Positions 35,101 to 57,730 of a stretch of DNA of 64,000 nucleotides are shown in pieces. Source of the DNA: Amyloporia xantha. Taxonomy: Eukaryota > Basidiomycota > Agaricomycetes > Polyporales > Adustoporiaceae. The notes under the pieces were generated by a model. The model was not told the DNA's origin and searched no databases. It saw only the letters and a program-made list of their open reading frames with translations. The translations under genes and the position numbers were made by a program. The stretch covers positions 1 to 64,000 of the forward strand of contig JAYKKR010000040.1 in the NCBI GenBank assembly GCA_036971615.1, in the 5' to 3' direction. Each line of letters begins with the position of its first letter. The first letter of the stretch is position 1.

Positions 35101-36040
35101 GGAAGACAGCTTAAGACAGGCTAAGTACTCAGAGTAAAAGTTAGATTTTCCTGATGTTAGGATGTTATTTTAGTCTAAGTGTGAACTAAATTGCTGGATT
35201 AAAGATCTACTGATGCATAAATCTCAAATAAATAGAAGTTTACAACAGTATATGATTCTACTTTTGAATGCAGTAATTTGAGAACATTCATTGGCTGAGA
35301 ATAAAATCAAGCAATGAAAAGGACACCATCACAGTCACTGCAAATAAATTACCATTTCATAGGCAGTGAAAACAGTAAGATAAGTGCGCAAAAGTGGTTA
35401 TTTATATGGAACCATGCCTTTCACACGCCTATCTTATCATTTGTGTTGCCTGCGAAACAGTGATTTTCTTGCGGTGAGTGTCACTTGAGATTCTCATGTT
35501 ATTGTGCCTAAGATTTTCATGTAATTTGCCTCAAATTCTCATGTTAATTTTTCAGAAAATCTTGTTTTGATATTATTTTATTTTGAACTTAACCTTGAAC
35601 AGCATATGAGGAAGACCGGTAATCAATAAACCAACACACTCTGATCACATTTCATCTGACCATAAGCAGAAGCTAAGACATTGAAAGAGTGATTGCCTGT
35701 TAAAAATGGCATGCTAAGAACATTAGTAACCTTAGGACCTTAGACTCTTTTTCTTATGCATGTTGCTGATGCATGCCCTCATAAGTACAAAACATTCAAA
35801 GAGAAAGGAAGAAAGTGTGTGACATTAGTGAAACCTCCTGGAGTTACTTTTGGATAGTGTTGATTTCATTATTTGTTGAAGACTTTTGGGAATATTGGCA
35901 TGAAACTTAAAAATCATATGAACCAAGAATTTGGACAATTTCACACAAGTCTCATTGAAGAATTTACGACAAATTAGCAACATTCTGTTGTCATTTTGTT
36001 GTAAATTTTGTCTTATTCTCTTAAGTATGCCAGTGTTTAA
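32161..36040. repeat. AT-rich, CpG-depleted block (3.9 kb)
   Basis: Base composition changes sharply at about 32,160 to roughly one-third GC, and changes back at about 36,045. I counted only about eight CG dinucleotides in 3.9 kb, most of them between 35,385 and 35,620, where about a hundred would be expected from the base content. TG and CA are correspondingly common. This is the footprint of cytosine methylation plus deamination (RIP-like or CpG decay) acting on repeated DNA. I find no coding frame of note. Short words such as GATTAGCACTCA(A/G)TAA recur (33,480 and 33,530). It is probably an old, heavily mutated transposable element. Confidence 0.7.
32712..32818 (-). repeat. Possible tRNA-derived (SINE-like) sequence
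   Basis: Read on the minus strand, TAGTGCAGTGGTAAAG fits an RNA polymerase III A box, and about 60 bases further AGTTCAATTTTGAGT fits a B box whose CG has become CA. GGACATA before and the spacing resemble a decayed tRNA head. No intact cloverleaf can be drawn, so this is not a functional tRNA. Confidence 0.3.
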
Positions 36041-36049
36041 TGTTGCACC

Positions 36050-38823
36050 ATGTCCGCCTCCAGCATCAACAGCGACATCATCATCGCCGCAGTGCGCCTG
36101 GAAGAGGCGCTGAAGTTTCTGCCCGGGAAGCGCGACGCGAAGTACAAGGTGTTTGAGAGCAACTTCTGGGAGGAAGTGGTAAGTGATTGTAACACAATCA
36201 GGGTGAGCACTGTGGCGCTGAGTCTGTATAATGGCGCCTCTAGCAATCGATCTTCGCGAAGATCAAGGCGCTGGGAAAACACCGCGAGGGATTACAAGTG
36301 CCGCCGCTGTTGGTCAGCGCCATGGCGCAATACACGGTGGCGTCGCACAAGAAGCGCGGAGTGGACTTGACTGCCATCAAGGTTGACGACCCCGCCATTC
36401 AAAGCCATGGCCTCTCCAAATACGTGTGGCATGGCGATTACATTGCCGAAGACCTCGGGGGCAACCTTTGGTGGAAAGGTGAGTGCACTGCGAAACCATA
36501 CGCCACGTCATCACTAACGGCTCAGCAGCGCTGTTGCGCAAGCGTACGAGCGAGGTTGCGCTGGGTGGGGATGGAGTTGCGGGGCCAAGTGGGGTGACGG
36601 AGGAGGCAGAGGCGGGCGGGAGTCGAGGGAAAGTGGCGAAGAAGGGGGCGGATGACGACGCAGGGGCGGCCTCTAGAAGGTCAAAGGGAACGACGCCAGC
36701 GACGGACGGCGATGAGGGTGTCGTCATCGCTGCACCAGTAACGAAGAAGCCACGGCGCGGAGGGGCTGCAACGACGAAGCCGGGAACTAAGGCGGCATCC
36801 AAGGGCGGAGTCAAGACCACCACTGCGAAAGCGGCAGGAGAGGAAACGATGGCCGCCCAGTCTGAGCCGCGGACGAAGACGAAGGCGGGGCCATCGACGT
36901 CGAAGACGAACGAGAAGGCTTCATCGCGCAAGTCTCCTGCGGGAAAGGATGATGACGCCAGGCAGACGCGGTCGAAGGCGAAGGCGGGATCGTCGACGGG
37001 GAAGGGAAAGGGAAAGGCGAAGGCGTCGCCGGCGCCCGAAGATGACGACATGGACGAGGACGCTCAAGGCGAGAGTGAGGAGATGGAGGAGACGGAGACA
37101 TTTGTCTCGGTGAGTACGTTTACCAGATGCGCGGCAAGCGATGCTGACTGACATGCCTTCAGGCGATGCCTTGCGGAAATTGCGCCAAGGCCAAAGCTGA
37201 ATGCAGGCTTGCTGTCGTGGACGGTCGGCGTTGCATGCGCTGCCTGAAGCGCAAGATAGGCTGCTCGATCGTGCCACACAACCTGAGCGGCAATCCGATC
37301 AGGGGCCCCTACGGTGCAGTCCTGGCAAGCAAGTATCAGGACGTCATCAAGAACAGCCTCGCCGATGGCATCAAGCCTCCTCCACCGCGCTGGGATGAGG
37401 AGAGGAAGGAGTTTGTGGAGGATAGAGGCAAGCGGGGCAAAGCGCGCGGCGAAGGGTTCGGAATCGAAGGCGAGCGATGAGATGGATGTGGATGAAGAAG
37501 AAGGGGAAAAGGACGATGGCAAGGCGGGTAGCGCGGATGTCGATGCGAAGGACGACGCGGAGGTGGACAGCCAGCTGCGGGTGGCGTCAGCGACTAGCGA
37601 TGCGGCTGCGTCCCGCCCAATAGCGCCGCTCCCGAAGACGTCGCTCAGCTCGATGAAGGCGTGGGTTGGGAAGCCACCTCCAGCGGTGGCTAAAGGGAAG
37701 GGCAAGGAGCGCGCGGACCGTCCTCTCCAGGAGGCAGAGGCCAGCAGCTCGAGCGATCGCTCGGCGCGGCTTGGGCTCAGGCCTGGCGAGGTAAAATGTA
37801 AGTCGGCTTCACTCTTTCTGGACGGCGCGATCAACTGACCAAGTCAATGTGTGGCTGCCAGACCACCATGGCGAGTACCACCACTACGTAGGATTCTCCA
37901 AGGACCCCACCGCCATGGATGAAGGGCGCTACGCGCAGGACCAGGAGCTGTCTCATTTCCAGCCATTTACGGCGTACCTCACTGAGCAAGGCCACCGACT
38001 CGAGAAGAACATCAACATAATGACCGCGTGGCAAGACCGCTTCGGTAGCATGGTCGACAACTTCCAGCAGTCACTGCTCGCCATCAACAGGCAGCAGGTC
38101 AACATGACCGAGCGCATTGATAACGCCGAGGGCAGATTGGCGGCCTACTGGCAAGAGTGGAAGGCGCGGGAGCAGACTCTGCAAGATGTGCGCTCTGAGG
38201 ACTCCGTCGCTCGCATCGCCGCGCTCGAGGAGATGGTCACGGTTCTGCAGGACGATCTGCGCGCAGCCAAGGAGAACATGGCGATGGATCGCCTTGGTGC
38301 CCAAGTCGCGAACATGGAGGTGCGCGTGGACACCTTGATGGACAACGTGCGCGATGAGAGCGAGAGGACGCGGCAGGCGATGGCGGGCATTGAGGCAGGT
38401 GAGGCGAGATTACAGGGACTCATCGCGCAGTTTGAGTCAGTGCGCCGTGGCGTCGCTCGCCACAACGACGCGGAGGCCGAGACGCTATTGGACAAGGCGC
38501 ATCTGTCGGTGGAGCTCGTGCAGAAGGCGGAACAGGACGCGCAACGACGGCGCAAGGCGAGGGCGATCATGGACAGCGCTCACGAGGGAGCCACTCCCAT
38601 TTCGTGGTCTACCTCAGAGCGTGGCTCTGTAGGAGATCAATCGGACTTCACGAATGAAGCTCTGTCGACGCCCGCCGGTGGCTCCACACCTTCAATCAGG
38701 CGTTTCTCCTTGGAGATCGACGACGACGAGATGGCGAGCATGGCCGCGGAGGAGCGAGAGCCTGATGCCGCAACATCACCCGTCGCTGTCAAGGACGCCG
38801 AGATGCCTCCCGCTTCGCCTTAG
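36050..38823 (+). CDS. Zn2Cys6 cluster protein of the KDZ element (835 aa)
   Basis: Six exons join without a frame break: 36050-36178, 36244-36478, 36526-37109, 37163-37414, 37470-37797 and 37844-38823. Order of parts: an N-terminal domain (about residues 1-120, with KYVWHGDYIAEDLGGNLWWK) that I cannot name; a Lys/Ala/Ser-rich linker (about 120-315); a binuclear zinc cluster starting near residue 320 (CGNC, AEC, RRC, MRC, IGC; spacing C-x2-C-x6-C-x9-C-x2-C-x6-C); and a C-terminal region of about 320 residues that is heptad-rich and probably coiled-coil, ending acidic. Zn2Cys6 domains bind DNA, often CGG half-sites as dimers. I infer a regulator or DNA-targeting partner of the element. It is tail-to-tail with the next gene (gap about 230). 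The 37415-37469 intron is my choice to maintain frame. Confidence 0.8.
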
Positions 38824-39055
38824 ATAATTGTTTTTGTAACTTCGCTGTACTTTTAAACAAATGCATTGTGTTACACTCTCCAGCGACCAGTAACCAGTAA
38901 GATTGAGAGTGCAATGAGGGCAACACCCTCGGCATCACAGTTCGCCACGGGGGCTTGCACAGGGAGCGGCACGCCATCGCCATCCTTCGCAGCGCTGAGT
39001 TCAATCATCGCCATTGAATTTAAATGCGAGGTAGTCTACATGGAGAAATAGTATT
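38824..39055. terminator. Shared 3' region of two convergent genes
   Basis: The stop codons at 38821-38823 (+) and 39056-39058 (-) face each other across 232 bases. TTTTTGTAACTTCGCTGTAC and TTTAAACAAATGC just after the plus-strand stop are plausible 3'-end signals. The spacer itself carries several CGCCAT words. Confidence 0.3.
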
Positions 39056-42000
39056 CTAACGGCGACCACGCGCTTTAGTGGGTCGGGGCTGAGCTCCCCT
39101 ACCTGTCTTGCGCGATGACCTACGAATGGCGGGGGCAGGCTCGCCCTGCTCTTCCTCGCCATCGCTATAAGTCTCCGCCAGAGCCCGCTTTGAGCGACCC
39201 GCCTTTTTTCGCTTTTCACGAGGTTGGGGTGGTTTCTCTGCTTCCTCCTCCTCTTCCTCCTCTTCGCTCACGCGGTGACTTCGCTTTTTCAACTTTTCCT
39301 CCTTAGCTTTTGTCTTCTGACGAGTGTGGGTGGCGACCTTCATGTCGTTGAGAGCACCCGTGATCGAGGACCCGCCTGCCGTTGGCAGTGCCTGAATATT
39401 GATCTCCTTTGCCTGCCGAGCTGTTTGGCGTGTCTTGCGCTTTGGCACAGGAAGTGAGGGAGAAGGACCACGATTGGCCTCGCCGTCGCTCTCGTCTTCA
39501 CTGTCATGATTTTCACGGTCGGAGAAATGAACCTGTAGGCCCCTCATATCTCGAACGGGTGAGAGCTGATTCATCGCAATAGGTGGAGAGGAGGAGAAAT
39601 CCATACTCCCGCGGCGGACAGTTGCGTCATTGAGCGCGATGGGGAGGATGGTGGTGCGCGCCCTGGCGCCATTGGCGAGGAAGGCGGTGCGCCGTCAATT
39701 GATGGCGGTCTCTCTTCTAGTTGTGGACGCGGTCTCATACCCAAGGCGCGCTTAGGTATGGATGGAAAGACCGATCTTCCCGTGGTCATTAGCGGCCTTG
39801 CTGGAGGCGGTTTTCCTGTGACTGGAAACGGAAGCGAATGTTTTTGCGTGCCTCGCAGAGGTTCCGGCAACGGCGAGCTGGATTGCTGAGCTACTTGGCC
39901 ATTATGCGCGTCTCGCGATCGCCTTATCTTAGGGGATGTGAGGATTGGCGCGGCTTCCCTCGCCAATGCCGCTGGCGGGTCCGGCGTACGACGCTCCTGT
40001 TCCGCCCGCAGGGTTTGCAAATGGCGAGGCTTCGGGCGGAGTGGGGGAGGTGGACCCTTGTTGAGATTCCCAGTGGGCATCATGGGAGGGCGAGGTGATG
40101 GCTTCCCCTGTCTGGGAACGTGGGGCGGTGGTGGACCATATTTCAACGCCGGTGGTGGGGCCTCCAAAGGTGTTGGCTGCGCCGCGGCCGCAGTGCTACT
40201 GCGGGTGACAGAGCTACCTTCCATGGATGGCGCGTCGCCTTGCACAGATTGTGCCTGCTTCACCAGCGCGCACAACGATGATACATGCGGGTCGAGCCTC
40301 TGGGCAATCACGGCGAAGGGTATGGCGCTCTCGCTGACATGGCGTGGAATGTCCGAAGGCGGGCGTCGGGATCCTGGAAGGCGAACTGTGCCGCCGTCAG
40401 ATCGCGGCTTATCATGGCGATCACGAGGAGCACTTGTTCAATCATGCCGACGTCCCCTGTCAGCCTGCCGGACTTGTTCAAATAAGGCTTCGAGTCGAGC
40501 CACTTCAGCACTGGATCGAGCCCATGGGCGTGGCGATGAACCATATAGGACAAGTGTCGATGCGGGTTGTGCCAGGTCGCCCAGTCGGCGCCTTCCGGTG
40601 CCCGCTTTGTCGTCTTCAGCCCACTCTATCACTCGCAAGGTAAGCCTTAGTTTACGGAGAAAATGAAGTTACTACCATCATGCGAGGCAGCGCGTCCACG
40701 ATCACGCGAAATTCTGGCGATGGCGATGCCGCCTCCAGCCATTGCTGACGCCGTCTACGTGAAAGCAGCGCCCAATTGGGGGCGGCGCCTTTTGCATCTT
40801 CGCTGTCATCATCTTCGTCGGAAGTTGACCCGACGTCGATGTCCAGATTGAAAGTCTCGTGCTCGGTGTCGTCGTCCACGGCGCTATCGTCATCGGTGCT
40901 GAGACGTTGCACGCCTTGCCCTTGCCGCTTTTCACCGCCTTCTTTTTCTTCTTTTTGGGGCCCGCCTTGCCTTTAGCGCCTTTGGGTGCTCTCGCCGCCT
41001 CATACACAGCAGGGATTAGCTCCGAATCCTCGTCCCCCTGCTCTTCAGGTATGCCTTGAAGCGGAACGCGCACTGCCCCTTGTTTGCCTCTTGCGCCGCT
41101 CTCCAATGATGCAGGACCGCGATGATGTCCTTCCTGACCATATGCGACGGATCGTCGAATTGGAAGCCGTCTGGCACCATTCCTGCTTCTATAAATTCAG
41201 CCCCACGCACTTTGAGCGCGCGCCAAGGGCACTTCTCTTTGGCGCTTCCTGCAGCCCGTTCTATGGCGCCATCAGCGTCTTTGTGAGCGCCGTGTGGATC
41301 AAGACTTACGGTAGTGAGTAGACAGAAAGTCTCTGATCATGGATTTCATCACAGGCAGGGATGGCGCATCCTCGCCATCCATTGGCGGTATCAACGGGAG
41401 ACCGCCATCGTCGACCAGCAGCTCTCGCCGTGTGCCGCGAGACGTTCCCTCTCCGTTGTCAACGCTCGCCTCGCGATTGCTATCAAATGCCTCTGTGCTG
41501 TACTTGGCCCATTTGACCATCGTATCTGCGTGCCAATCGTCCACCTTGGAAAAGGCTTTTCCATTCTCCATCTCATCGTTGAAGTCGTGTCTGTGAAAAG
41601 CGGTCAGAGCGGTGAGAGGCGATACAAATTGCCTGCTCACTCCTGAATGACGACTCTCCCATCAGGAGATTTGTAGCTACTCAACGTAAAGATCCTGACA
41701 CCATGGCGTCGGTATGCCTCTCGAGCGTATTTCCTCAGAAACGGAATGAGCTCCTTGTCCGCTTTCCTGCGTCGCCATCAGCTGCCGTTAACTTAGCACA
41801 AAGGTCGCGCTCCCACTCACGCCGAAGATCCAGCCTTGACCTCTTTGGCGTCATTGTTGAACGCATCCGCCTTCATCTGGTAGTCCGCCTTTGCGTCCTC
41901 ATCCAGTTTGCCCCAATACTCGCTCACTACCTTGGTGTATGCGCCTATCTCCTGGTGGGCCAGACCTCGTCCTCCCGTCCTTTCGTTGGCCACCCTTAGC

Positions 42001-42331
42001 AGCTCTGTTTTGTGCTCCTCTTGATACATATCCCTCGCTGACCGTTTTTCGTTCCAGGGATGGGCACCTGGGGTTCTACGATTCGGTAGTGGTTGCTGAA
42101 ATAGGTCCCCAGGGACTATAGAAATGTGTGAATGACGAAGATGACAATGCCATGAACTGTTGGTTTGACCTTTTTCAGGCCATTTTTATCTGTCAGCTCT
42201 GCAAATTGTTCCATGAGGATATTGACAGCCTCATCGACAATGGGTGCCCTCGCAGTGCCTTTGGTGTTGCGCCATCGCTCTATTTGCTCTGGGATCTTGT
42301 CTAGATATGCCTGCAGGATAGCTATTCCCAT
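39056..42331 (-). CDS. Low-complexity, HMG-like protein of the KDZ element
   Basis: Multi-exon minus-strand gene. The N-terminal part (AILQAYLDKIPEQIERWRNT ... VNILMEQFAELTDKNGLKKV, from 42331) is followed by EEHKTELLRVANERTGGRGL ... VSEYWGKLDEDAKADYQMKA (42029-41830), which has the W..L....K..Y pattern of an HMG-box-like helix. Next comes a linker with WHADTMVKWAKYSTEAF, then MVRKDIIAVLHHWRAAQEAN, a Lys run, an acidic stretch and NPHRHLSYMVHRHAHGLDPV. A Pro-rich region (40311-39630) and a basic/acidic tail ending RPTKARGRR (39056) complete it. One intron at about 40616-40665 joins ALPRMM to SGLKTTK exactly. Frame changes near 41070, 40925, 40350 and 39635 are unresolved: small introns or indels. 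Function unknown; charged, Pro-rich composition suggests a nuclear DNA-binding or scaffold role. The start is uncertain. Confidence 0.55.
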
Positions 42332-42778
42332 GGCGAGGACAACAAGCAGACCGAGATGCTCTCAGGATGACAGACACTTGGGCACTCCCAACTGAACATT
42401 TGCCCAGACGTGTCTGACCTCCGGTGATACTTTCGTCCTGTTCTAACCCCGCTGATCTCTCTTACACTGCAAGCGTCCATGTCGGGGCAGACCCGACCGG
42501 CATCCTCCGGCGGAGCGCGGCATCTCACAGGCCGAGGCCCCGGCGTAATGGCGCCGTGGTCGAGAATCGCGGTCCACATGCCAATGACGCGCCTCGATCA
42601 CCGGATCACGCCTTGCCGATCGGCTGGGCCTGATCTTGCCGGCGCTTGCTCAACGATGTGATCGACCAAACAAGTGTGCAAAGCTAATGGACATGCTGTT
42701 GCAGCATGGTCAGTAGATGGCAGATTGAGCAATAATGCGAGATGGGGCGTGTATCTCCATCCATCTCGTCTGTAAGCC
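42332..42778. promoter_or_regulatory. Divergent promoter region
   Basis: About 450 bases separate the start regions of the minus-strand HMG-like gene and the plus-strand TET/JBP gene. A minus-strand open frame (42579-42322) overlaps it and could hold an extra 5' exon. It contains ATGGCG at about 42549 and several near-matches. The shared spacer suggests co-expression of both genes. Confidence 0.4.
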
Positions 42779-44038
42779 ATGATAGCGGGCAGCGGCTTGG
42801 AGCTCAGCGACACATTGGCAGCTTGCATGCGCGATATGTTTCAGTTTTGGCTACACAAGCTTCGGAATGCAGCCGGACAACCGAGAAACCCACAGCCTCC
42901 CACACATATCCGCGCCGATATCGTCGTCGAATGCAGCCAGATCGCGCACCAGCTCGCAAAGGCATATATCAAACCTGGTGTGTACTCTTGGATGCTGTGG
43001 GCATCTACTCATGCTGCGCTGACCGGAAAGTAGTGCGCTTATCCTGGGACATTGACCGGTATTCTGATGCTATAGGCGTGGGCAACACCGGACAGAACGT
43101 GAATCTGGAGGCGCAGCTCAAGACTAAATGGCCGCCTCTCCTCCCAGACACCACCGTGGTTCTAGATGAACCCTGCGTGCTCCTCGACCAGCACTCGCGC
43201 ATCCTAGCATGGGTGCTTCCGGGCGTCCTTCATGTGAATCGCCAGGTGGGCTCATTCATCTTCCGCCATGCACCGTGCTCACTACGCTGTGTCGGCAGAG
43301 GGAGATACAATTGGCGACGGCCCACCTATCAACACAACTGATGCGTAAAGCCCCGGGGGTCAGTTGGCGAAACCATGAAGCATATTTCCGCGATCGATCA
43401 ACCTGCACCACACCTCCGGGGACTGTCAATCTGTCTCCAGGATGGCACGCGCTGGGTCACACGGTACGCTGACGATCCCTTAACTCTGATGACTGGCGAA
43501 TGACGGCGCATACATCCAGGGCCCATTGGACCCAATGCTGCCTTCGGCGAGCTTACGCGATAAAGATGGCCAGAGTGGATGGCGATGGTTGACCGCCATC
43601 CGTGAATCAGCCGCCATCCTATCCGGCATGATGTCCATCATGCATCCCGACCTGTATGCTGCGGGACATACATGCATGGAGTCGCTTCTTGGCGAAGTGG
43701 AGTATCCCGCAATAGTAAGCGCTTGGTCTTCGATCTTCAATGGCGTTCAGGTCATCAGCAATCGCGAGACGCCGCTACACCGCGACAAAAACTCGCGCAA
43801 GCAGTGGTTCGACCTTCTCACCACGGTAGGGAGCTACGGCGCATTGGAAATGCAGCTGGATGGTCCAAATATCGCTATAGACTACAAGGCGGGTAGCGTA
43901 GTTGCGCTTTGCGGAAAGCTTCTGCGCCATGGCGTTCAGAGATGCGATGGAGAGCGCATATGCTACGCTTATTTTATGAGGGACTCAGTGCATGCCGCGA
44001 TGAATGTCAAGGCACCGCACTGGATGGAGTGGACTTAA
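42779..44038 (+). CDS. TET/JBP-family 2-oxoglutarate/Fe(II) dioxygenase (365 aa)
   Basis: Expected to oxidise 5-methylcytosine in DNA, as TET proteins do (known for the family; substrate here inferred). Five exons join perfectly: 42779-42977, 43031-43245, 43299-43463 and 43520-44038 hold the coding sequence if the first ATG is used, with three introns of 53, 53 and 56 nt. Residues: VVLDEPCVLLDQHSRILAWV (about 105-125), SWRNHEAYFRD, GTVNLSPGWHALGH (about 180-193), and then the catalytic core. The iron triad is His-x-Asp in TPLHRDKNS (codons at 43778-43786) and a distal His in LLRHGVQ (43928-43930); YGALEMQLDG and ERICYAYFMRD complete the double-stranded beta-helix. No stop or frame break. It sits between the HMG-like gene and the transposase, 74 bases tail-to-tail with the latter. 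The N-terminus could start later, at the Met at 42827. Confidence 0.9.
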
Positions 44039-44111
44039 GGTTGCATACACAGATCTGTATTTGTGTCAAGTCTATGTTTGTGTATCTAGTAGGGTCGTGA
44101 ATGGCGAACCA

Positions 44112-47100
44112 TCACACACATGTATTAAAGCGAGAAGCGGCATGCTCCGCCATGCGCGTCCACAGCGAGACCTGACGGCGCGCATAGCATACATGACCTG
44201 GAGGCCCATAGAGGCGGGAGCGCCATAGGTTCGCCTTGTTATGGAAGCTCGCCTGCGTCCACGCCATCTCTGCCGTGACCATGACAAACTCCTCCGCCCA
44301 CCTATCCTTACGTGATTTTGCACGGAACCAGTTGACGCGATGCACTGCCGCGCTGCAGTCAGCATTGCGGGCATTGGACGGACCACAAGCGCACTCACAC
44401 TCCGTCAACCAGTTGGACTGCGTTGAATCGCCCTCGATGTCTACGGTCCATATCCAGGACAACTTGTCCTGCCGTGTTCCTCGGATGGAGTTGTCCAGCA
44501 GCGCGGTGATCGCCTTGAGGTCATCATGTTGAATGGCACGGAAGCGCGCTTTGATGGCGTCAGTCGGATTCAGAGCGAGGATGGCGTGGCGGCTTTGACT
44601 GTAAATGCGCACGTTCTCTAGCACCGCCCTCTGCGTGGAGATGACCTCGTCCCAGGACCGGAGCTTTTGGCGCTGGCTCTTTGCATGACGAACCGCCGTA
44701 CGAAACAGCACTGACTTGTAACCAATGGCGAGGCGAATCTGATGAAGGGCGTCATTGGCCTGCCCAATGCGCAAACTCAACTCCTCCGAAGCGATGTCCT
44801 CTAAACCGCTGGCCACGACAACATCGTAGCCAAGCTGCGATGGAAGCGAAATGATGGCGCTCTCAGGCTGGATTCCAGAATCGATCTCACCGGTGTAAAT
44901 CTCATCAAGAGGATTGACATCTTCCTCCAGTGCATCCCATTCAGACCCGTCATAAGCCTCTGAGGCGCCATCCCCATCGGGCTCGGCCACAAGTGGAATG
45001 TACGAAGCGGCTTTGGACTCGAATGTCACTATACGCTTCTGAAGGCGCTGACGGCGCTCCTCCAGCGCAAGGCGGTCCGCCACCAGCGGATGCCGGCCCA
45101 TCTTCCGTTTCAGTTGGCTAATGACCAACCTAAGACCTGTTGTGAGCTTGGCACCCGATGTTCAATGACGCTACCTACTGCAATTCCTGAATCTTCATGC
45201 CCGTGGCTATCCATGCAGCTACGCCCTGATGGCGATGTTGCGATGTTTCCGTTTGCGTTAGTTGAAGTTGGATCTGCATCCGGGTGGGTGCTGCGCCACA
45301 TCATTAATCATGGCCGTACCCTCTAGTGTGCACTCTCACCCTTTCTCATCTGCACGTCAAAGACATCCATCGCGCTGATTTTAGCGTCACGCATGGCGAG
45401 CGCCTCGCCCTCAGCGGCTCGCCACTCTCCTAGCTGCTCCTCCGTGCTCGATCTCTCAATGAACTCCAACACATCCCCGCTCTCCGTGGCGCCGGCTTTG
45501 GCCTTTCGCCATTTCCTAACAAGGGTGTTCGCTGTTGAAGCCACAGTCAATCAACCTCTCCACCAATGTCAAGGTTGGCCCACCCATCCCGGTCAACTTC
45601 TTCCAATTGGAATCATTCATGTGATCGTCAATGACTTCCTTTCTATGTGCTGTGGTCATGCCGCGTGTGCTACCCGAAATGAGATTCAACGGCGCCCAAA
45701 GGGTTTCAATCACTTCGCCATCAATCTGACCAGCACCGGGAATGAAGTTGGGTGAGTAGCGAGGAAAGCATGTGTCTTGATGGCCGTGGACATGAAACAG
45801 GCCTATTCCGCGCCGTATCTCCACGTTCGGCGGCATGTGCAAATACTCACTCTCCCCAAACCGCTTCATGAGATTGATGCCGTATTGACACATGATGTCG
45901 TACATCACCAGCAGCACCTGGATACCCGCCATGGTGGCGAGCACCTCGCTCAGCGCGTAATCCATGTTCATCTGTCTGATGGCGGGTGTAAGTGAACAAA
46001 GGAAATAGCAAACCACTTACCTCTCGCCTTTCTGAAATCAACCACCGCATGCGGCATGAAAAACCCATGGCGCGCACAGGCCGCGGCGCCAATCCCCGTG
46101 GCTTCAAGGTTATGGCGATCTGCATTCGCCTGGTTGACGGCGCGATGATCGTGACAGAAGGATTTCTACATAGGCTATGAGCGTCCAACGGTTCATCCAC
46201 TAGGGGTCGATCACGGACCTCTTTATGCTCGATGGCGACAGCGAGATGCTTCTTGTAGGTGTCATCGCCCACCATGAAAGCGTCGCCATCGCTGAGAATG
46301 ACGTCGTCCTCTGGGCGACGCATCTTGAGATGCTCCGCGCTAAAGTTGCCGTCCATTACGATGCTCCTCATGTACTTCCATCTGCTATCGCGTTACACAT
46401 GCCGCCCAAAAACGTCTTACATGGCTCACTGTACGGGGTCATCACGCCATCCGGAAGCGAGATTCACGCCAGGCTTGGGACATGCCGGGCACCCCAAAGC
46501 GAGGCCACCAGCTGGTATCGCGTTGGAGGCGCCATGACCATATCCATGCCATTTGCGGTATTTGAGGTTTCGCCATTGGCGGGACACCCGCAGAAGCTCT
46601 CTGTAACGGTTCTAGCCCCTTCTCAACGGCGAAAACAGCTTCATATGCACATAGCGGCTTACCTGCACTGAATGCGGGAACGCGGAGTTTGTGACACGTC
46701 GAAGCTTGCTGTAGTAATTCATCCCCGAGGTTTTGCACTCCTTGTTGGTAAGCAAAAATCATCCAACACCCGAAATGTGAACGCAGTGCGTGGCCGCTTG
46801 GTGCTCCCAGGATAGAGGCCCATGTCCAATAGTTGCAGGTCTCGAGTGAGCCTGTTATCGCACCGACACCACACAACGTCCAGGCTATGCATCCCCGTAA
46901 CATCTACAATGGTCAAAGTGTCAAATGCGTAGTGACTTCGCGGCGCCGTCGAGTCCGCTTTGATTGGCTCTTCATCCTCTTCATTGTCCCCGGCGTCACT
47001 CACGTCGTCGTCTTCGCCATCGCTATCAGCATCCCCATCCAGCGGCGTGATCGGGGACTCCGCATCCACACATGGTTCGCCATCATGCCCGAGATGCATC

Positions 47101-47672
47101 CGCACCCCAACCTCCCGAAGCCACGCCGGTTCGAAGAACCCATCCGACCACTTCTCCACCCGATGCAGCGGCATGCGGCGATGCGTCAACTGCAGGCAGT
47201 CCTCGCAATACACAGGGCGCCCAAAGCATTCCAAGCAGCGCCAATCGCCATGCGCATCAGCGCATTTGCTGCATCGTCTCTCACCTGGTGGAGCTTCTAG
47301 CTCGATGATGTGGCTTAGATACACATCGCGAAGTGGAAGCCATTCGCGCATAAAGTCGTTCTGCGACTGCCCCGCCTTCGGCGTTGACATTGAGCGACCC
47401 AAATAAGGCGACGGTACTCACCTTGTGCAGACTCTTCATCGGCATCACATCGTCAAACACCACATGCTCCTGCACGGGTTCGGAATATGCGTCATGAGAC
47501 GCGGCTTTAGAGGGGATTTCGACGGCGATCTTGATGCGCTTGTCGGCACATGCGCACGCGGTAGCGGTGCTTCCTTGGGAACGTATGTGACGGCGCCTCT
47601 TGCAGTTCGCCGTTCTTCGCGACGCACGAACACCGCATCGCCACTGACATGTTGCTTCTTCGTGCGGGCCAT
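44112..47672 (-). CDS. KDZ-family transposase with CxC2 cysteine cluster
   Basis: Start MARTKKQHVSGDAVF at 47672, stop near 44112; about ten exons with 45-54 nt introns. Order: a basic N-terminus; EHVVFDDVMPMKSLHK; QNDFMREWLPLRDVYL; the CxC2 zinc-binding cluster (CSKC, CLEC, CEDC, THRRMPLHRVEKW); LLTNKECKTSGMNYYSKLRR; RYRELLRVSRQWRNLKYRKW; CPACPKPGVNL; the core IVMDGNFSAEHLKMRRPEDD; CHDHRAVNQANADRHNLEAT; CARHGFFMPHAVVDFRK; QMNMDYALSEVL; MYDIMCQYGINLMKRFGESE; GIGLFHVHGHQDTCFPRYSP; GQIDGEVIETLWAPLN; a long helical C-terminus with HRVNWFRAKSRKDRWAEEFV. Two single-base losses break it: T-run 46754-46758 (before LLTNK) and near 46028 (RK|GERQ); the latter could be rescued by a donor four bases downstream. 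Either this copy is freshly dead or these are read errors. Confidence 0.92.
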
Positions 47673-47947
47673 GGCCGTATCACTGCGGACAGATGACAAT
47701 TGGCTTATTGTGATCCATGACAGCTTCCTTTTCATACTGAATGGCGATCTCTCACGCCCCTGCCTCCTGATCCCTTATCAACAACGGATCATATCCACGC
47801 GATCACCTTCAGATACTTGGCCGATGCTTATCTCCGACGGATCTTCGCCATGACCTTCCCTCGAGGCGATCACCCGATCCACCATCGACTCCTCAAATTC
47901 GCCTTGCATTTCGCCTTGGCCTACCAACCCATTCACCCCACGGCGCA
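47673..47947. promoter_or_regulatory. Divergent promoter of transposase and small gene
   Basis: A 275-base spacer lies between the transposase start (minus) and the next start codon (plus). CCATTCACCCCACGGCGCA directly precedes the plus-strand ATG. An in-frame upstream Met for the transposase at 47735 is possible. Shared control is inferred from position only. Confidence 0.4.
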
Positions 47948-48702
47948 ATGGCTCTCGCCTTGAAGAATCGCGAACAGTCCCTCTCCAGCCTCATCGCTAT
48001 CAACCGCCGACTGATCTCATACTATGCCTGGCGCTGCGAGCAGGCGCTAGCGACCATCATGTCTGTCGCCGCCGGTAGAGACAAGGTGGCTGGCTTCGAC
48101 ATCACCTTGGCGCGGTGGGAGATTGGCCTCCGCATGGAAATGGTAAGCTTCGCCTTCCCCAACGTGTCTGCTCTGACGCTCAGCAGGAAGCCCTTCGCGA
48201 CTGCCTTGGCCGCCTCGCCCTCGTCGGCGTCACCGACGTCGAGCTCCCCGACGTCGTCCGCAAGATCAGCGACGCCACCGTCTTTGGGGCCGTCCCACGG
48301 ATCCACGTCCTCGAGATACAGCCGTTCACGCCGCCGCCTCGCCGCCATCCTTGCAGCTACAGAAGCTGCACACGGAAACCGAGCCCGCGTGGTGGACTTG
48401 GCCAGACGACCCTCCCAGTCACCTTCCAGCATGGTGGAAGTATCCACTGCATGACAGAGTAAGTCGCCACCCCGCTCCCACCTTTTCAACACATTCATTC
48501 ACATAAATTGCATCGATTGCCGCATAGCGTCGCGGGAGACACCTATCAAGTCAACTACCGCGATATGAGAGCGGTCAGCCATCGATTGGATGACGTCGAA
48601 CGCCTGGTCACCCGCTTCGCCGAGAGCCGCCATCGCGATGCCGGCGACCTCACAAGGATGTTGGACGCCTTCAAAGAGGTGCTGTTGGCAGATGAGGAGT
48701 GA
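47948..48702 (+). CDS. Small unknown protein of the KDZ element
   Basis: Exon 1 47948-48142 (MALALKNREQSLSSLIAINR ... ITLARWEIGLRMEM), exon 2 48184-48306 (QEALRDCLGRLALVGVTDVE ... VFGAVPRIH) and exon 3 48357-48458 (LQKLHTETEPAWWTWPDDPP ... WWKYPLHDR) join exactly through 41- and 50-nt introns. The last piece, VAGDTYQVNYRDMRAVSHRL ... DAFKEVLLADEE, is one base out of frame at its junction (about 48528). Composition is helical, with a Trp-rich loop. I do not recognise a domain. Its position beside the transposase, divergent from it, and its ATGGCG words mark it as part of the element. Confidence 0.5.
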
Positions 48703-48779
48703 GACCGGGTCTCTGCGCGCCATGTCGTAGGTGGATCTCGCCGTCGTCTGTATGTATTTCTTGTCGCTGCCTTTATGAG

Positions 48780-49190
48780 CACGAGTGCATGACGTCCCCA
48801 GCGTCTCCCATTTGTTCAATGGACCTTGTATTTAAGCGGCTGAATCACATTACCATCCAATCATGTGGATGGCGATGCGATTCAGACGCTTAACTTCGGG
48901 GTAGCATTGACGAATGGCCGAGCTCGAGGACGCCAGCAAATCATGCTCTTTGGACATCGCGCCATGTCAAAGGTGGGTGTTTTCAGGTGGCGTATGTATC
49001 CGTTTCGTCTGCGCGGTGAGTGCATAAATGCATGACGTCCTTCTGCGCCAGCCAATTCTTCAATGGCCTTGGTATTCAAGCAGCTGAATCGGATGGCCAT
49101 CCAACAATGGTTGGATGGCGATTCGATTCATCCAGGGTAGCATTGAGGAATCATGCAGGTCGAGAACGCCAGCACATCACGCCGGCTGCG
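48780..49190. repeat. Two diverged repeat copies with hairpins
   Basis: A unit beginning GTGCATGACGTCC and running through TATT(T/C)AAGC(G/A)GCTGAATC to GGATGGCGATTCGATTCA occurs at about 48785-48930 and 49020-49175. Copy 2 contains a perfect hairpin, CCATCCAAC-AATG-GTTGGATGG (49097-49118); copy 1 has a weaker version. Copies end near CGCCAGCA(A/C)ATCA, a phrase that recurs further right. Confidence 0.6.
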
Positions 49191-49199
49191 CACCATGTG

Positions 49200-49830
49200 C
49201 CTCGCCTGCGCGCGCCATGCACGGCGCCATCGGATGGCGCATATTGCCGCTGAACGAGGCGGCTTCATCTATGACCTTCGGAGCCACAGGTATGCGGCTC
49301 TGAAGAGCATAGATGAAGGCGCCCTGTCTGGCGAGCCATAGCGCCATCTCCCAACAGTGAGCATGAGCGCGCCATGCACGGCGCCATCGGATGGCGCATA
49401 TAGCCGCTGAACGAGGCCCCTTCTTCTATGACCTTCGGAGCCACAGGTAAGCGGCTCTGAAGAGCATAGATGAAGGCGCCCTGTCTGGCGAGCCATAGCG
49501 CCATCTCCCAACAGTGAGCATAAGCGCGCCATGCACGGCGCCATCAGATGGCGCCCGTCGCCGCCGGACAGCGCAACTTCAGTCTGTGGCCCTCAGAGCC
49601 ACAGGTATGCGGCTCTGAAGACCATAGATGAAGGCGCCCTGTCAGGCGAGCCATAGCGCCATCTCCCAACAGCGAGCATGAGCGCGCATGCACTTCGCCA
49701 TCAGATGGCGCCCGTCGCCGCCGGACAAGGCCCATTTGACTTATGTCCTTCTGAGCCACAGGTATGCGGCTCGGAGGAACATAAGTCAGGTCTTCCTGTC
49801 TGGAGTCTGACTCATTCATGCAAGGCGCTG
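49200..49830. repeat. Array of hairpin units with shared loop ACAGGTATGC
   Basis: Four units of about 150-160 bases, each with GCGCGCCATGCACGGCGCCATC-type arms, then a long imperfect hairpin. In units 1-2 CTTCATCTATG...GGAGCC pairs with GGCTCTGAAG...ATAGATGAAG; unit 3 is a chimera; in unit 4 GACTTATGTCCTTCTGAGCC pairs with GGCTCGGAGGAACATAAGTC. The loop ACAGGTATGC (ACAGGTAAGC in unit 2) is constant while the stems vary together. Open frames across it (minus strand) are a by-product of the repeat. Confidence 0.75.
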
Positions 49831-50374
49831 TTGGATTAACCCATTAACTCCTTGCTCTCTACGTTCACCAGTGGAATCGAGTTGCCCTCAGCGCCATGAG
49901 TACTCCGGATGCAGCTGATTTGTCCATCAGCATCAGGGGTACTCTCAAAACGTGGACGGCGATTCGATTCCTCTGGCTGACCCAGGGCAGCAAGGATGAA
50001 ATGGCCCAGTCCAACAGCGCCAGCACATCATAACACCTGCTGGCGCCCGTCGCCGCCGGACAAGGCCCATTTGACTTATGTCCTTCTGAGCCACAGGTAT
50101 GCGGCTCGGAGGAACATAAGTCAAGTCTTCCTGTCTGGAGTCTGACTCATTCATGCAAGGCGCTGTTGGATAAACCCATTAACTCCTTGCTCTCTACGTT
50201 CACCAGTGGAATCGAGTTGCCTTCCGCGCCATGAGTACTCCGGATGCAGCTGAATTGTCCATCAGCATCAGGGGTACTCTCAAAACGTGGACGGTGATTC
50301 GATTCCTCTGGGTGACCCAGGGTAGCAAGGATGAAATGGCCCCGTCCAACAGCGCCAGCACATCATAACACCTG
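49706..50374. repeat. 335-bp tandem duplication
   Basis: Unit 1 49706-50040 and unit 2 50041 to about 50374 are nearly identical, with a fixed offset of 335 bases and a few substitutions. Each includes one hairpin of the preceding array, a run with ATGAGTACTCCGGATGCAGC, and an end piece with GATTCGATTCCTCTGG and GCGCCAGCACATCATAAC. It is a recent duplication within the subterminal repeats. Confidence 0.85.
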
Positions 50375-50469
50375 CGTGCCATACGCCTCACAATGTGGCA
50401 GGCAAGGTACGTGGCGCATGGTTGCATAGCGCGTCTGGACATGGTGGCGCCATGATTCCATAGCGCATG

Positions 50470-50785
50470 CTGCCGCTGGAGATGGCCATTGGATCTGTGT
50501 CCCGCAGAGGGTCCAGACAGCTGGATCCTTTGAAGGACACATATCAGATGGCCCAGTCTCTGCGCGTGTCTTGGGTTGGGCGAGAATATGTATTAGATGC
50601 TGGTAGGTGGGTAGATCCAGTTCAAATGACCTTAGCGTACATGAAATATGTATAGCGGTAGAATATAGCGATGCTGCCGCTTGAGATGGCCATTGGATCT
50701 GTGTCCCACAAAGGGTCCACACAGCTGGATCCTTTGAAGGACACATGTAAGATGGCCCTGTCTCTGCGCGTGTCTTGGGTGGGGT
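50470..50785. repeat. Pair of GGCCATTGGAT hairpins
   Basis: Two copies (about 50473-50555 and 50671-50755) of a hairpin in which GGCCATTGGATCTGTGTCC pairs with GGACACAT..AGATGGCC; an inner stem GGGTCCA / TGGATCC is present in both. Each is followed by TCTCTGCGCGTGTCTTGGGT. The stretch between copies (50565-50670) is unrelated. Confidence 0.7.
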
Positions 50786-50834
50786 GTATGGAGCCGTCGG
50801 AAATGGCCAATCAGTCCTTGCGCTTTGAATTGTA

Positions 50835-50994
50835 GTCACACCACTGACCTGACCACACACGAAACGTCGTGATGAATGACAGATTGCAAAGCCTAATGGA
50901 TGGCGAGGCATTATTATTATTATACATACAGCATGAGATTTATTGAAATGCATATAATTAAAGCGTAGAAAAGGAAACAATAGGGCGGAATATA
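50835..50994. other. AT-rich linker before the 86-bp array
   Basis: Contains a short TTA run (50911-50921) and a low-GC stretch. No gene seen. Confidence 0.4.
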
Positions 50995-51854
50995 CTACTT
51001 CAAGGCGAGAATATACCACGATAATATGGCGCAGTCGGCCGCGCCGTGTCTACAGGCTATATTATAGCCCTCGGCCGACACTACTTCAAGGCGAGAATAG
51101 ACCACGATAATATGGCGCAGTCGGCCGCGCCGTGTCTACAGGCTATATTATAGCCCTCGGCCGACACTACTTGCAGGCGAGAATATACCACGATAATATG
51201 GCGCAGTCGGCCGCGCCGTGTCTACAGGCTATATTATAGCCCTCGGCCGACACTACTTGCAGGCGAGAATATACCACAGAAATATGGCGCAGTCGGCCGC
51301 GCCGTATCTAAAGGCTATATTATAGCCCTCGGCCGACACTACTTGCAGGCGAGAATATACCACGATAATATGGCGCAGTCGGCCGCGCCGTGTCTACAGG
51401 CTATATTATAGCCCTCGGCCGACACTACTTGCAGGCGAGAATATACCACAGAAATATGGCGCAGTCGGCCGCGCCGTATCTAAAGGCTATATTATAGCCC
51501 TCGGCCGACACTACTTCAAGGCGAGAATATACCACGATAATATGGCGCAGTCGGCCGCGCCGTGTCTACAGGCTATATTATAGCCCTCGGCCGACACTAC
51601 TTGCAGGCGAGAATATACCACAGAAATATGGCGCAGTCGGCCGCGCCGTATCTAAAGGCTATATTATAGCCCTCGGCCGACACTACTTCAAGGCGAGAAT
51701 AGACCACGATAATATGGCGCACTCGGCCGCGCCGTATCTAAAGGCTATATTATAGCCCTGGGCCGACACTACTTGAAGGCGAGAATATACTACGGAAATA
51801 TGGCGCACTCGGCCGCGCCGTATCTACAGGCTATATTATACCCTCTCGGCCGAC
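50995..51854. repeat. Ten 86-bp tandem units with nested palindromes
   Basis: Units start CTACTT at 50995, 51081, 51167, 51253, 51339, 51425, 51511, 51597, 51683 and 51769, an exact 86-base period throughout. Each holds ATATGGCGCA, an inverted pair GTCGGCCG ... CGGCCGAC, and between them a perfect hairpin GGCTATA-T-TATAGCC. Two sequence classes are visible: CACGATAATATGG with CCGTGTCTACAGG, and CAGAAATATGG with CCGTATCTAAAGG. They are interspersed, as expected from unequal exchange. A worn partial unit follows to about 51900. Confidence 0.95.
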
Positions 51855-51961
51855 CCTGCACTGCAGGCTATAGCGATGGCGTCGGCCGACGTCCGCTCTC
51901 CTTACTAAGTAATAAAAATTTCACCCATATCTCTCCCTATAGAGTAGGCTATAATGACTGA
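51855..51961. other. Junction of the repeat array and the copia element
   Basis: A degenerate last unit (CTGCAGGCTATAGCGATGGCGTCGGCCGACG) gives way to AT-rich sequence and then to the copia reading frame. The copia element lacks 5' LTR and gag, so the breakpoint must lie here, but no target duplication can be assigned. Confidence 0.5.
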
Positions 51962-53447
51962 ATGGGCTCTTGGAACGCAGACTCAGGTGCTACAGCTCAC
52001 ATGACTCCTCATCGACACTGGCTTCGCGACTACTCCCCGCATCGTGTCGCTATACGCCTCGCAGACAATCAGGTGGTCTATTCTGCTGGGGTTGGAACTG
52101 TGGTCTTTTCGCCGATTGTGGGAGGTAGGGTGGTCAAGAACGTCGAGTTTACCCGTGTTCTACATGTCCCTGCCCTTCGTAACAATCTTCTGTCTGTCCT
52201 TTTCCTAACACGACGTTGCCAATTCACTGTGCGCATTGGACGTGAAAGGATGGACTTCTCAAAGGGAGGTCGAACGCTCTTCTGCGCCCGCATCGACGAC
52301 TCGAACACTGCGCTTTTAGCCGGTCATACTGTCGCTCTTACAGAGTATGCAAAGCTGAGCTCCACTCTTCCTCTCGATCTTTCGCTCTGGCATCGTCGTC
52401 TCGCACATCGTCACATCGACGGAGTGAAGCGTTTGCTGTCTCAGGATCTTGTCACTGGTCTGACACTGGACTCTAAGGCTCCCTCAGACCCTGTCTGCGA
52501 GCCCTGTCTTGCTGGGAAGATGCATGCTAATCCTTTCCCTCCGTCGTCTCATCGTGCCAGCAAACCGCTCGAACTCGTTCACTCTGACGTTCATGGTCCC
52601 CTGCCTGTCCAAACCCACTCTGGCTATCGCTACTGGGTTACATTCATCGACGACTTCTCCCGCTTCCACACTGTCTACTTAATGAAGACAAAGGATCAGG
52701 TCTTCGAAATGTTCAGACATTACAAGGCGTGGGCGGAGAATCAGACAGACTGCAGGATCAAAGCGTTGCGAGACGACAAGGGAGGTGAATACATGTCCAC
52801 TGCCTTCCTTTCCTTCACCACAGAGCATGGCATCGAGCGACAACACTCCACGCGCAATCGACCGCAGCAGAACGGTGTTGCGGAGCGCACCAATCGAATT
52901 CTAGGCGATGGTATCAGTTCTATGCTTTCTGAGTCCGGTCTTCCTCCCTCTTTCTGGGGAGAGGCTTTGTCTACTCTCGTGCATGTTCTGAACCGCTGTG
53001 CCTCCTCCGTGCTACCAGACGCTACGCCCTTTGAGATGTGGTACAAGCGCAAGCCGGACGTTAGCCATCTCCGCGTTTGGGGATGCACTGCCTATGTCCA
53101 CGTCCAGAAGGACAAGCGGACGAGTCTTGGCGCCCATATGGAGAAGTGCGTCTTCATTGGTTATCCTGATGGTGTTAAAGGTTGGAGATTCTACAATCCT
53201 ACGACGAAGCGGATCATTCTTTCAGAGCGCGCTGATTTCGATGAGCGCTACTTTCCTGGTCTGAAGCAATCGACAGCTCCTCTTGCTTCTCCTCCTACTT
53301 CTAACTCTGCTCCTTCACCTCCACCACCACCTCCTGACGCTGCTCCGCCGCCTCCACCACCCTCTCCTCCTCCTGCACCTGCTCCTCTGCCGGTCGCTGA
53401 TCCTGTGCCTGTGCCCGCTGTTGCGCCTGCGCCACCTCTTGAGGGGA
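51962..53447 (+). CDS. Copia polyprotein part 1: protease, integrase
   Basis: Begins with the protease site WNADSGATAHMT (DSGAT core, about residues 4-14). It continues with the GAG-pre-integrase domain (LWHRRLAHRHIDGVKRLL; CEPCLAGKMHANPF gives the zinc-binding Cys pair) and the integrase core. Its acidic triad is seen in ELVHSDVHGPLPV, in KALRDDKGGEYMSTAF, and in HSTRNRPQQNGVAERTNRIL with its Glu. FWGEALSTLVHVLNR, LRVWGCTAYVHV and CVFIGYPDGVKGWRFYNP follow, then a Pro-rich linker. The frame upstream is closed by TGA at 51957-51959, so the Met at 51962 is just the first in frame. The continuing frame is lost at 53443-53446 (GGGG), where one G is probably missing. Confidence 0.9.
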
Positions 53448-55431: not shown

Positions 55432-55474
55432 GGTTGGATTCAGGGGGAGCTTGGACAATGAGAGGTGTCTCATT

Positions 55475-55483
55475 AAGGGGGAG
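55475..55483 (+). promoter_or_regulatory. Copia polypurine tract
   Basis: AAGGGGGAG directly before the TGTCAAACG LTR start; the site where plus-strand DNA synthesis is primed in LTR retrotransposons. Confidence 0.75.
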
Positions 55484-55735
55484 TGTCAAACGAGTAATTC
55501 TTCACCTCTCTTCTTGAAAACTATTTCTATGGACTCCTTACATCTATAGCTATCTTTCTGTCTATTCACTTTATTCCTATCTCCTTCTGCACCTATGATA
55601 GAATCCGTTCTTTACCTACACCCCTAGAGTAGTTGCCACTTCTGTGTTGATCGTTGTTTGTTCCCAAAGCGCACCACCTCAGAGTCCGTTGCATCCTGGC
55701 TTCCCCAGTTGCTCAACTCGGACTCTAGGTGAGTG
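55484..55735 (+). repeat. Copia 3' LTR (right end uncertain)
   Basis: Starts TG after the polypurine tract. The right end is unclear: AGTTGCTCAACTCGGACTCTAG occurs at about 55709-55730 and again at about 55763-55784, so the end may be duplicated or rearranged. Confidence 0.5.
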
Positions 55736-55789
55736 GTTAGGTATATTAGCTCAATATATAGTTGCTCAACTCGGACTCTAGCTGTCTGT

Positions 55790-56045
55790 ATACTTGAGCA
55801 TCGATTGATCGAGCCCGCCTTTCGTCTGTGGCTCTGACAAGGACGGCTGCAATGAAAGTCAGGATTCTATCGCGAGACATCCTTGTCCTTGCGCTCGGAG
55901 AACACTGCATGTCGTAGTAATGGAACAAGATCCGAGATGAGGGACCAGAAATCATCAATGGCTGGGCTAAAACGTGGTAATTTAGGTCATGGACTCTCGA
56001 GACACGATGTAAGAACCACCACAAAAAGTATATGTCGTCAGTGAT
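55790..56045. other. No recognisable gene
   Basis: A 92-codon minus-strand open frame (55746-56024) has no known motif. Confidence 0.35.
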
Positions 56046-56565
56046 GTCAGTTATAGTGGATAATCTTCTCTATACTTTGTACACTTTTTTGTCTAATCTA
56101 CCCCATACCTGAGTGCTCTACACTCCTTAATCCTAGGATAATCCTGTCTATAGTCACCTAGAGTTCTAATCTCAATCCAGAGATTATCTTCTCATGTTGG
56201 ATTATCCAAGGATTATCCCAATTGTGCTCAGTCTGTCTCCCTCCAATATCCAAGATTATCCATGAGATAATCTAGCTCCATGGCCTCCATAATATGATCA
56301 TCTCACCAAGAACACAGAGTCTGAACTTGAGATAATCTCCCTAGGATAATCCACTTCAGAATTTATTGAGCTAATCCAAATCCCAACCACAATGAACTAG
56401 AGATTATCCACCTCCAAGTTGACTATGCTAATCCTACATCCTAATAGAGATTATCCACATCCAACTTTACTAGGCTAATCCTACATCTAATAGGGCTATA
56501 CCAGAGATAATCCACATCCAAGTTCAATATGGTTAATCCTACCCTTAACAGATTATCTACCTTCC
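56046..56565. repeat. Cluster of GGATTATCC-like words
   Basis: About thirteen GATAATC/GATTATC words occur in roughly 520 bases, on both strands, commonly as (A/T)GGATAATC(C/T) or AGAGATTATCCAC(A/C)TCC. Several CTAATCCTACAT(C) words lie between them. The longer AGAGATTATCCACATCCAA...TAATCCTAC phrase recurs at about 56400, 56450 and 56500. It looks like a subterminal binding-site cluster of a DNA transposon, perhaps of the element to the right. Confidence 0.7.
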
Positions 56566-56599
56566 ACAGCGGGATAACTCCACGAACTGCGATGAACGA

Positions 56600-57525: not shown

Positions 57526-57529
57526 TGTA

Positions 57530-57730
57530 CATATGTAAACTTAATGGTATTAGTCTCGGCCGAGCATTATAACATCACCCTAAGCCACCTTTTAATTGCG
57601 CATTGAGGATATCTCTATGCCCTTCACCAGCATGGACTCGCCGGCCGCTACATCACTGGTGATAGCTAAAGTTTTCGTAATCCTATATAGATCGTTCCAT
57701 TAAACCCTAATTATTCTAGTATCCTAGAAT
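57530..57730. other. Spacer right of the GC-rich array
   Basis: AT-richer sequence including ACTAATTATTCTAG-like words; no coding signal. Confidence 0.35.

Follow-up and report, generated by a model that had tools for sequence, protein, structure and literature searches.

A dispersed 6-bp word in a TET-bearing KDZ transposon of Amyloporia xantha is conserved in the manner of a predicted binding site for an element-encoded protein

In the VANC/VANDAL system of Arabidopsis, described as sequence-specific anti-silencing by Hosaka et al. 2017 (PMC5735166) and Sasaki et al. 2023 (PMC10398659), the proteins VANC21 and VANC6 bind family motifs in VANDAL elements, with binding proven, and the VANC targets also expand via tandem repeats (PMC5735166). 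TET-positive (TET+) KDZ (Kyakuja/Zisupton) transposons of Agaricomycotina, as presented in a 2025 survey (Kojima 2025, PMC12730594), combine a KDZ transposase with a TET/JBP gene and are present in many copies per genome, and the survey speculates that TET/JBP enzymes of this type act without target specificity. The words described below bear on how such transposon-encoded enzymes locate their own elements. The DNA analysed is a stretch of 64,000 nucleotides of Amyloporia xantha (contig JAYKKR010000040.1, positions 1 to 64,000 of the forward strand), referred to as the window. Judged by its sequence, the element at 36046-51964 is a left-truncated copy of a KDZ transposon with Tet_JBP, CxC2 and a Zn2Cys6-like protein; it likewise pairs the transposase with a TET/JBP gene and has many relatives in the genome. 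In contrast to the lack of specificity proposed in the survey, the elements described here carry class-specific words that suggest targeting.

The word of this element is ATGGCG (CGCCAT on the other strand), and it occurs 123 times in the window with both strands counted, of which 103 fall within 36050-51900. The 13.2 kb without tandem arrays (36050-49209) contain 74 copies against 12.7 expected under a first-order Markov model (z=17, rank 1 among all 6-mers), and rank 1 was retained under a second-order model with 22.3 expected. The density in the element is 5.6-6.5/kb, compared with a genome mean of 0.81/kb (37,765 in 46.81 Mb). On the left (1-32000) there is no excess (14 vs 16 expected), the AT-rich block at 32301-36000 contains none, and the right side (51961-64000) has 6 vs 7.4 expected. 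In the class A1 stretch, as this element's lineage is called below, the word is split 37/37 between the strands, its spacing is approximately random with no helical (10-bp) period seen, and its counts per kb are even. The preferred context extends the word to GA[T>A>C]GGCG[A/C], with scant flank bias past one base. A sequence-only reading had drawn attention to this word, and its count of 16 in 43501-45250 was reproduced exactly; that the word is dense throughout the element, nearly absent from the AT-rich block and rare to the right is also borne out by these counts. The enrichment stands well above background, for which the comparators were the genome mean and the left 32 kb of the window rather than single genes.

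To place the element among its relatives, the same genome was searched for KDZ, which gave 150 scored matches (172 candidates), and 41 KDZ matches were at 99% over residues 1-166. The 30 loci fetched (L005-L034, L034 being the window) have ATGGCG at 4.6-9.4/kb. Twenty further KDZ loci were chosen by hand across the identity range, with the middle 5 kb used for L035-L038. Two of these, L039 and L040 (KDZ 97% and 91%), form class A2 with 40 and 31 ATGGCG per 5 kb. All six loci at 66-81% KDZ identity (L035, L036, L037, L041, L042, L043) form a sister class, B, whose KDZ is 74-81% identical to that of class A and whose dispersed word is gTCGCG[G/A]; per 5 kb they contain 24-34 TCGCGG, 26-35 GTCGCG and only 3-6 ATGGCG. 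The B word is the top 6-mer in 5 of the 6, the exception being L042, in which a telomere-like ACCTAA repeat ranks higher; this locus is at the end of contig C34, where the ACCTAA/TTAGGT repeat adjoins a class B element. The sequence-only reading had considered that other copies might lack the word: class A copies have it, whereas the sister elements show no excess of ATGGCG and carry a different word instead.

The 12 distant KDZ loci (31-45%; L038, L044-L054) contain 1-11 ATGGCG (maximum 11, in L054) and 0-5 TCGCGG per 5 kb. L038 has 21 words in its whole 10 kb because a 98.5% class A1 fragment lies outside the middle 5 kb. No Tet_JBP matches are listed in these 12 stretches, and the Zn2Cys6-like cysteine pattern was not found in their 5 kb, although this gene sits several kb from KDZ and could fall outside. 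A possible third word class was rejected, since the elevation of TGTGGC (L050, z 7.9) is local and, across 13 kb, weak (26 vs 10.2). Other words are weakly elevated in distant loci, namely GTGGCT (L049), GGGAGG (L044, L052, z about 5.6) and AGCTCA/CAGCTC in the AT-rich L046.

Conservation of the words was compared between diverged copies. A1 (40331-49209) was aligned with A2 (74% identity, 8824 aligned columns) and B2 with B1 (69% identity, 7651 columns), and words drawn within 40 columns (5000 draws) served as local controls; identical words slightly favour their own alignment, a bias that the control words share. Of the ATGGCG sites, 36 of the 52 in A1 and 36 of the 63 in A2 are retained in the partner, compared with 25-30% of CpG-containing hexamers with 4 G+C (baselines of 25-27% for the 36 of 52). 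The local controls predict 16.9 retained words on the A1 side (maximum 27) and 19.2 on the A2 side (maximum 29). Viewed from A1, identity is 91% inside the word and 78% in its flanks. ATGGCG has the lowest P among the 775 words with at least 5 aligned sites; beyond the overlapping GATGGC, the next-best word reaches a P of about 2e-3. Class B gave the same picture for its own word. TCGCGG is kept at 20/34 and 20/43 sites against a baseline of 14-17% and local expectations of 5.5 and 6.5 (draw maxima 16 and 15), GTCGCG is kept at 20/46 and 20/37 (B2 vs B1), and these two words hold the lowest P in both directions, the best unrelated word being AGATGG/CCATCT (6/7, P 8e-5). The word of the other class is not kept beyond chance in either alignment (TCGCGG in A 0/9; ATGGCG in B 2/5). 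Preferential conservation of the word in two classes therefore indicates constraint on the word itself, and selection on ATGGCG and on the class B word is well supported by these alignments. It is unusual in itself for selection to act on about a hundred scattered 6-bp sites that overlie coding sequence.

Individual sites also turn over between A1 and A2, with 16/52 and 27/63 private to one copy, while density is maintained. In the TET-KDZ-CxC2 region, where the classes are 58-60% identical, A words showed no excess overlap with TCGCG sites in three pairs (4 vs 2.4, 1 vs 2.0 and 3 vs 2.5 expected), which rules out in-place conversion of A sites into B sites. Because A and B sites occupy unrelated positions, the words were not edited in place; the two classes built their sets separately. 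Visual comparison shows T[G/C]GCG to be common to aTGGCGa and gTCGCGg, and a small specificity change in one reader is conceivable.

The features of the window copy that bear on these results are as follows.

36046..51964, no strand: class A1 TET+ KDZ transposon copy, left-truncated, ATGGCG about 6/kb (word counts; limits by homology and terminus)
37148..37477, plus strand: open reading frame (ORF) with a Zn2Cys6-like cluster, candidate reader (six Cys at 37172-37264, C-x2-C-x6-C-x9-C-x2-C-x6-C)
37795..38823, plus strand: ORF, probable coiled-coil C-terminal exon or exons of the Zn2Cys6-like protein under a putative gene model (weak coiled-coil-type Pfam matches below cut-off)
41817..42185, minus strand: ORF with weak HMG-box likeness, second candidate DNA binder (Pfam HMG_box_2, 16.8 bits, cut-off 22.4)
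43493..44038, plus strand: TET/JBP dioxygenase domain ORF (Pfam Tet_JBP, E 3.4e-16, 59.4 bits, cut-off 34.9)
44112..45161, minus strand: same-strand ORF 3' of the KDZ domain, probably the C-terminal exon of the transposase (77% identity in A2, 50-55% in B)
45516..46016, minus strand: KDZ transposase domain ORF (Pfam KDZ, E 1.6e-31, 110.2 bits, cut-off 26.6)
46719..47417, minus strand: CxC2 cysteine-cluster ORF of the transposase (Pfam CxC2, E 2.9e-21, 76.1 bits, cut-off 27)
49210..50375, no strand: subterminal tandem arrays with units of about 157 and 335 bp (16 ATGGCG in 1166 bp)
50994..51854, plus strand: 86-bp tandem array, about 10 units, 10 ATGGCG (L062, a longer copy, has an inverted counterpart at its left end)
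51947..51964, minus strand: right terminus, reverse complement CATTCAGTCATTATAGCC, CA..TG type (common to the L008, L035 and L062 junctions)

The left limit, 36046, is where homology to the longer A1 copy L062 begins. L062 keeps a left part of about 2.8 kb, with the left terminus, that has 24 more ATGGCG and is replaced in the window copy by the AT-rich repeat; adding L062 585-3383 to 36046-51964 would give a full-length element of about 18.7 kb. The right terminus CATWCAGTCAYTATAGCC is also present at three other junctions (L008, L035, L062), and such CA..TG termini resemble those reported for Kyakuja (PMC12730594). Kyakuja is reported there without terminal inverted repeats, whereas here the terminal regions are inverted and contain 86-bp arrays. 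The element was not filed as Kyakuja, because the left end of L062 is an inverted counterpart of the right end of the window copy (91.8% identity across 644 bp) and has 86-bp arrays. The target-site duplication is 7 bp long in Kyakuja and 8 bp in Zisupton. L062 (C34:2412585) lies between B-word-bearing sequences (L062 1-584 and L063), apparently nested in a class B element, and L020 is an internally deleted class A1 derivative in which window 36535-37922 is fused to 45404-47514.

The 86-bp array has about one ATGGCG per unit, as the sequence-only reading had stated (10 in about 10 units). In L035, CATGGCGC recurs approximately every 20 bp over 1.4 kb (8325-9755) where a class A-type element ends; this array adjoins an 86-bp array, the class A-type element stands beside a class B element, and the boundary, at 7967, is marked by an abrupt switch in word density. 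TCGCGG-bearing tandem arrays are present in L058 and L059. Parts of the right subterminal arrays (window 49361-50651 vs L055) are 97-99% identical between A1 and A2, compared with 75% for the bodies, and on the alignments this near-identity is the mark of recent conversion or exchange of the element end.

To the left of the element, 32300-36045 is a nearly CpG-free repeat of about 33% GC that has close relatives at C2 and C59; its junction with the element falls around the start codon of the Zn2Cys6-like gene. That this block is part of the element was rejected: a 601-base probe matched almost in full at two other places (100%, 93%), its remaining matches being short and diverged, and together with the comparison to L062 this marks it as a separate repeat. 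A second, distant KDZ transposase at 59487-62428 (33% identity) is without the dispersed word. Across the genome, 79 of 114 Tet_JBP matches are above the cut-off. Of the 35 below it, 26 align with the profile only from about position 69-88 onwards, and several of these fall into nearly identical groups; such partial matches include C40:100057, C1:4024881 and C41:136784 and possibly represent another TET-like family.

As for candidate readers of the word, a Zn2Cys6-like protein is encoded in all four TET+ elements read (A1, A2, B1, B2), and a fifth gene, in L057, adjoins B1 and is probably part of another B-type element next to it. All six cysteines are invariant in the five proteins (A1, A2 and three B-type genes), which conform to C-x2-C-x6-C-xn-C-x2-C-x6-C. 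The genome contains 103 matches to the Zn2Cys6-like protein, which, grouped by identity alone, comprise 52 at 84-100% plus 3 fragments, 11 at 44-47% and 37 at 32-36%. This protein evolves fast: between A1 and A2 it is 47% identical, compared with 98.6% for KDZ, 77% for the C-terminal ORF, 76% for TET and 73% for CxC2, and between A and B it is 33-34% identical, compared with 74-81%, 50-55%, 53-54% and 50-60%, respectively. The downstream ORF at 37795..38823 is 42% identical in A2, and no counterpart was matched in B1 or B2.

Whether the word could arise without any reader was considered at two levels. It could stem from plain composition or from the usage of codons and amino acids (Met-Ala or Asp-Gly-Glu, for example), and the protein does contribute, as synonymous shuffles yield 9.8 words and codon permutation 5.0. 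In six class A ORFs (4140 nt), however, 26 ATGGCG were observed vs 9.8±2.6 and a maximum of 19 in 1000 synonymous-codon shuffles, and in four class B ORFs (2316 nt) 16 TCGCGG vs 3.8±1.7 with a maximum of 10, while in neither set does the word of the other class exceed the shuffle expectation. ATGGCG occupies five of the six frame/strand classes in the ORFs, and the observed number exceeds every shuffle, which rules out codon and amino-acid usage as the full cause for the ORFs tested. DNA outside the named ORFs conserves the word equally (20/29, compared with 16/23 in coding ORFs, which hold 29 ATGGCG in 4890 nt), and the compositional account has almost no probability left. Mutation, gene conversion or the spread of short tandem units might also leave such words behind as a by-product. 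Some words do lie in expanding arrays, and the 97-99% identity of the A1/A2 right-end parts beside bodies at 75% means that exchange occurs; but 74 words are outside arrays and have scant flank bias past one base, the word is kept above neighbouring hexamers at 69-74% identity in two classes, and sister classes in one nucleus favour different words, which makes this origin very improbable.

Two other readers can be proposed. A host factor, such as an activator, insulator or architectural protein, could be exploited by the element, and the genome contains roughly two ATGGCG for each copy of the reversed control word (37,765 vs 17,074), an excess to which class A elements contribute and start-codon contexts may. 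Yet ATGGCG is not in excess in the host DNA to the left (the 14 vs 16 above), and sister classes in the same nucleus keep two words at unrelated positions; two different words in one nucleus are therefore not explained by one host factor, and we regard this possibility as improbable. The word might instead be the site of the KDZ/CxC2 transposase, multiplied to pair the ends of a long (probably about 18.7 kb) transposon or to win in competition for transposase. Word density is highest in the terminal arrays, a class-shared reader is needed and the transposase is one, and CxC2 differs between the classes (50-60% identity). On the other hand, the interior and the coding ORFs are word-dense and equally conserved, where end-only sites would not persist; the KDZ core is nearly invariant (98.6% A1-A2, 74-81% A-B) and yet the word differs between A and B; and the 12 distant KDZ loci are without such a word in the 5 kb around the transposase, which covers parts of those elements only. 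A transposase site is thus unlikely, though it retains some weight.

A predicted site for the element's own DNA-binding protein, one of the two ideas of the sequence-only reading, is favoured because the word is conserved above its surroundings, the sisters carry another conserved word, and TET+ elements encode a fast-evolving Zn2Cys6-like protein. We consider it highly probable, from the pattern of conservation, that the words are protein-binding sites under selection. Their reader is likely encoded by the element and is probably the Zn2Cys6-like protein, and TET-linked anti-silencing would be the best-fitting function. The proposed mechanism is that about 100 ATGGCG sites (in full approximately GA[T/A/C]GGCG[A/C]) would be kept in genes, spacers and terminal arrays for an element-encoded reader, most likely the Zn2Cys6-like protein, probably a coiled-coil one, whose gene lies in the left part of the element. 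Bound densely, this reader would label the whole length of each copy of its class and would recruit the element's TET/JBP oxygenase or let it in, and host CpG methylation would thereby be opposed. The sister class would have switched specificity and built its own gTCGCG[G/A] sites, so that each class serves only itself; class A proteins would select GATGGCGA-type sites and class B proteins gTCGCG[G/A]. To this whole explanation, in which an element protein reads ATGGCG and brings or admits TET/JBP for class-specific anti-silencing, we assign a probability of about 0.5. More tentatively, the words could amount to a whole-element self-identity code, in which each lineage has about a hundred copies of one private word, within genes and between them, its own Zn2Cys6-like reader directs TET/JBP so that TET oxidation is sequence-addressed, and lineages split when reader and word change together.

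Several observations weigh against this explanation. All data come from one genome and two word classes (4 lineages, A1, A2, B1, B2), with loci picked by hand. Zn_clus (PF00172) scores were 14.7 bits for the window ORF and 12.3 and 10.9 in two others of the four proteins scanned, below the cut-off of 21, the fourth (L058) gave no Zn_clus match, and a profile of the five proteins against PDB retrieved no zinc-cluster chain. Because of these scores and the PDB result, the label is kept at "Zn2Cys6-like". A1 and A2 carry the same word despite Zn domains at 47% identity, and the HMG-like ORF, a second candidate reader, evolves equally fast (45% A1-A2, 26% A-B); fast evolution alone is not proof of a reader role. 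The near-variants enriched in A1, AAGGCG (4/23) and ACGGCG (6/20), are not preferentially conserved. Finally, the word's own CpG is not spared in the decayed copy L040. With L039 taken as the intact state, 108 of 155 substitutions in L040 are C>T or G>A, and CpG was lost at 14/39 ATGGCG, 10/58 other GGCG and 70/266 remaining sites (80/324 for all non-ATGGCG sites), a pattern as expected if the copy was methylated. The second idea of the sequence-only reading, a CpG target kept clear by TET/JBP, is not supported by these numbers, as the CpG of the word is lost at least as often as others.

In titles and abstract openings of the open-access literature on KDZ/TET, Kyakuja and anti-silencing, no description of such dispersed words in fungi was found, and the term "zinc" is absent from the main text of PMC12730594. 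With a private, conserved word in each of two sister families within one genome, targeting becomes directly testable through reader, word and enzyme, and, if the proposal is true, these words would provide short known words for sequence-directed oxidation of 5-methylcytosine.

Two known systems invite comparison. The DNA uptake sequences of Neisseria (DUS) and the uptake signal sequences of Haemophilus (USS) are short words spread across coding and non-coding DNA that a self-encoded receptor prefers. They mark whole bacterial genomes for uptake, whereas here a transposon inside a host genome is marked, so the parallel is an analogy only. VANC/VANDAL is closer. In both cases, a DNA transposon family carries a dense short motif and related families carry different motifs, the motifs gather in tandem repeats, the element-encoded protein evolves fast and differs by family while the transposase is more conserved, and escape from methylation is the proposed gain. 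The systems differ in that VANDAL elements (MULEs) have VANC proteins and a mainly non-coding motif, whereas KDZ, a Zn2Cys6-like candidate and TET/JBP are encoded here, the word is also in coding DNA with conservation equal to the remainder, and the case is known from sequence alone. The VANC domains DUF1985 and DUF287 were not among the Pfam matches of the ORFs scanned (three scans of 10 each, a subset of ORFs). The element would thus resemble VANC/VANDAL in its working, not in membership, and, if the proposal is true, it would be a second VANC-like system, independently evolved in another kingdom.

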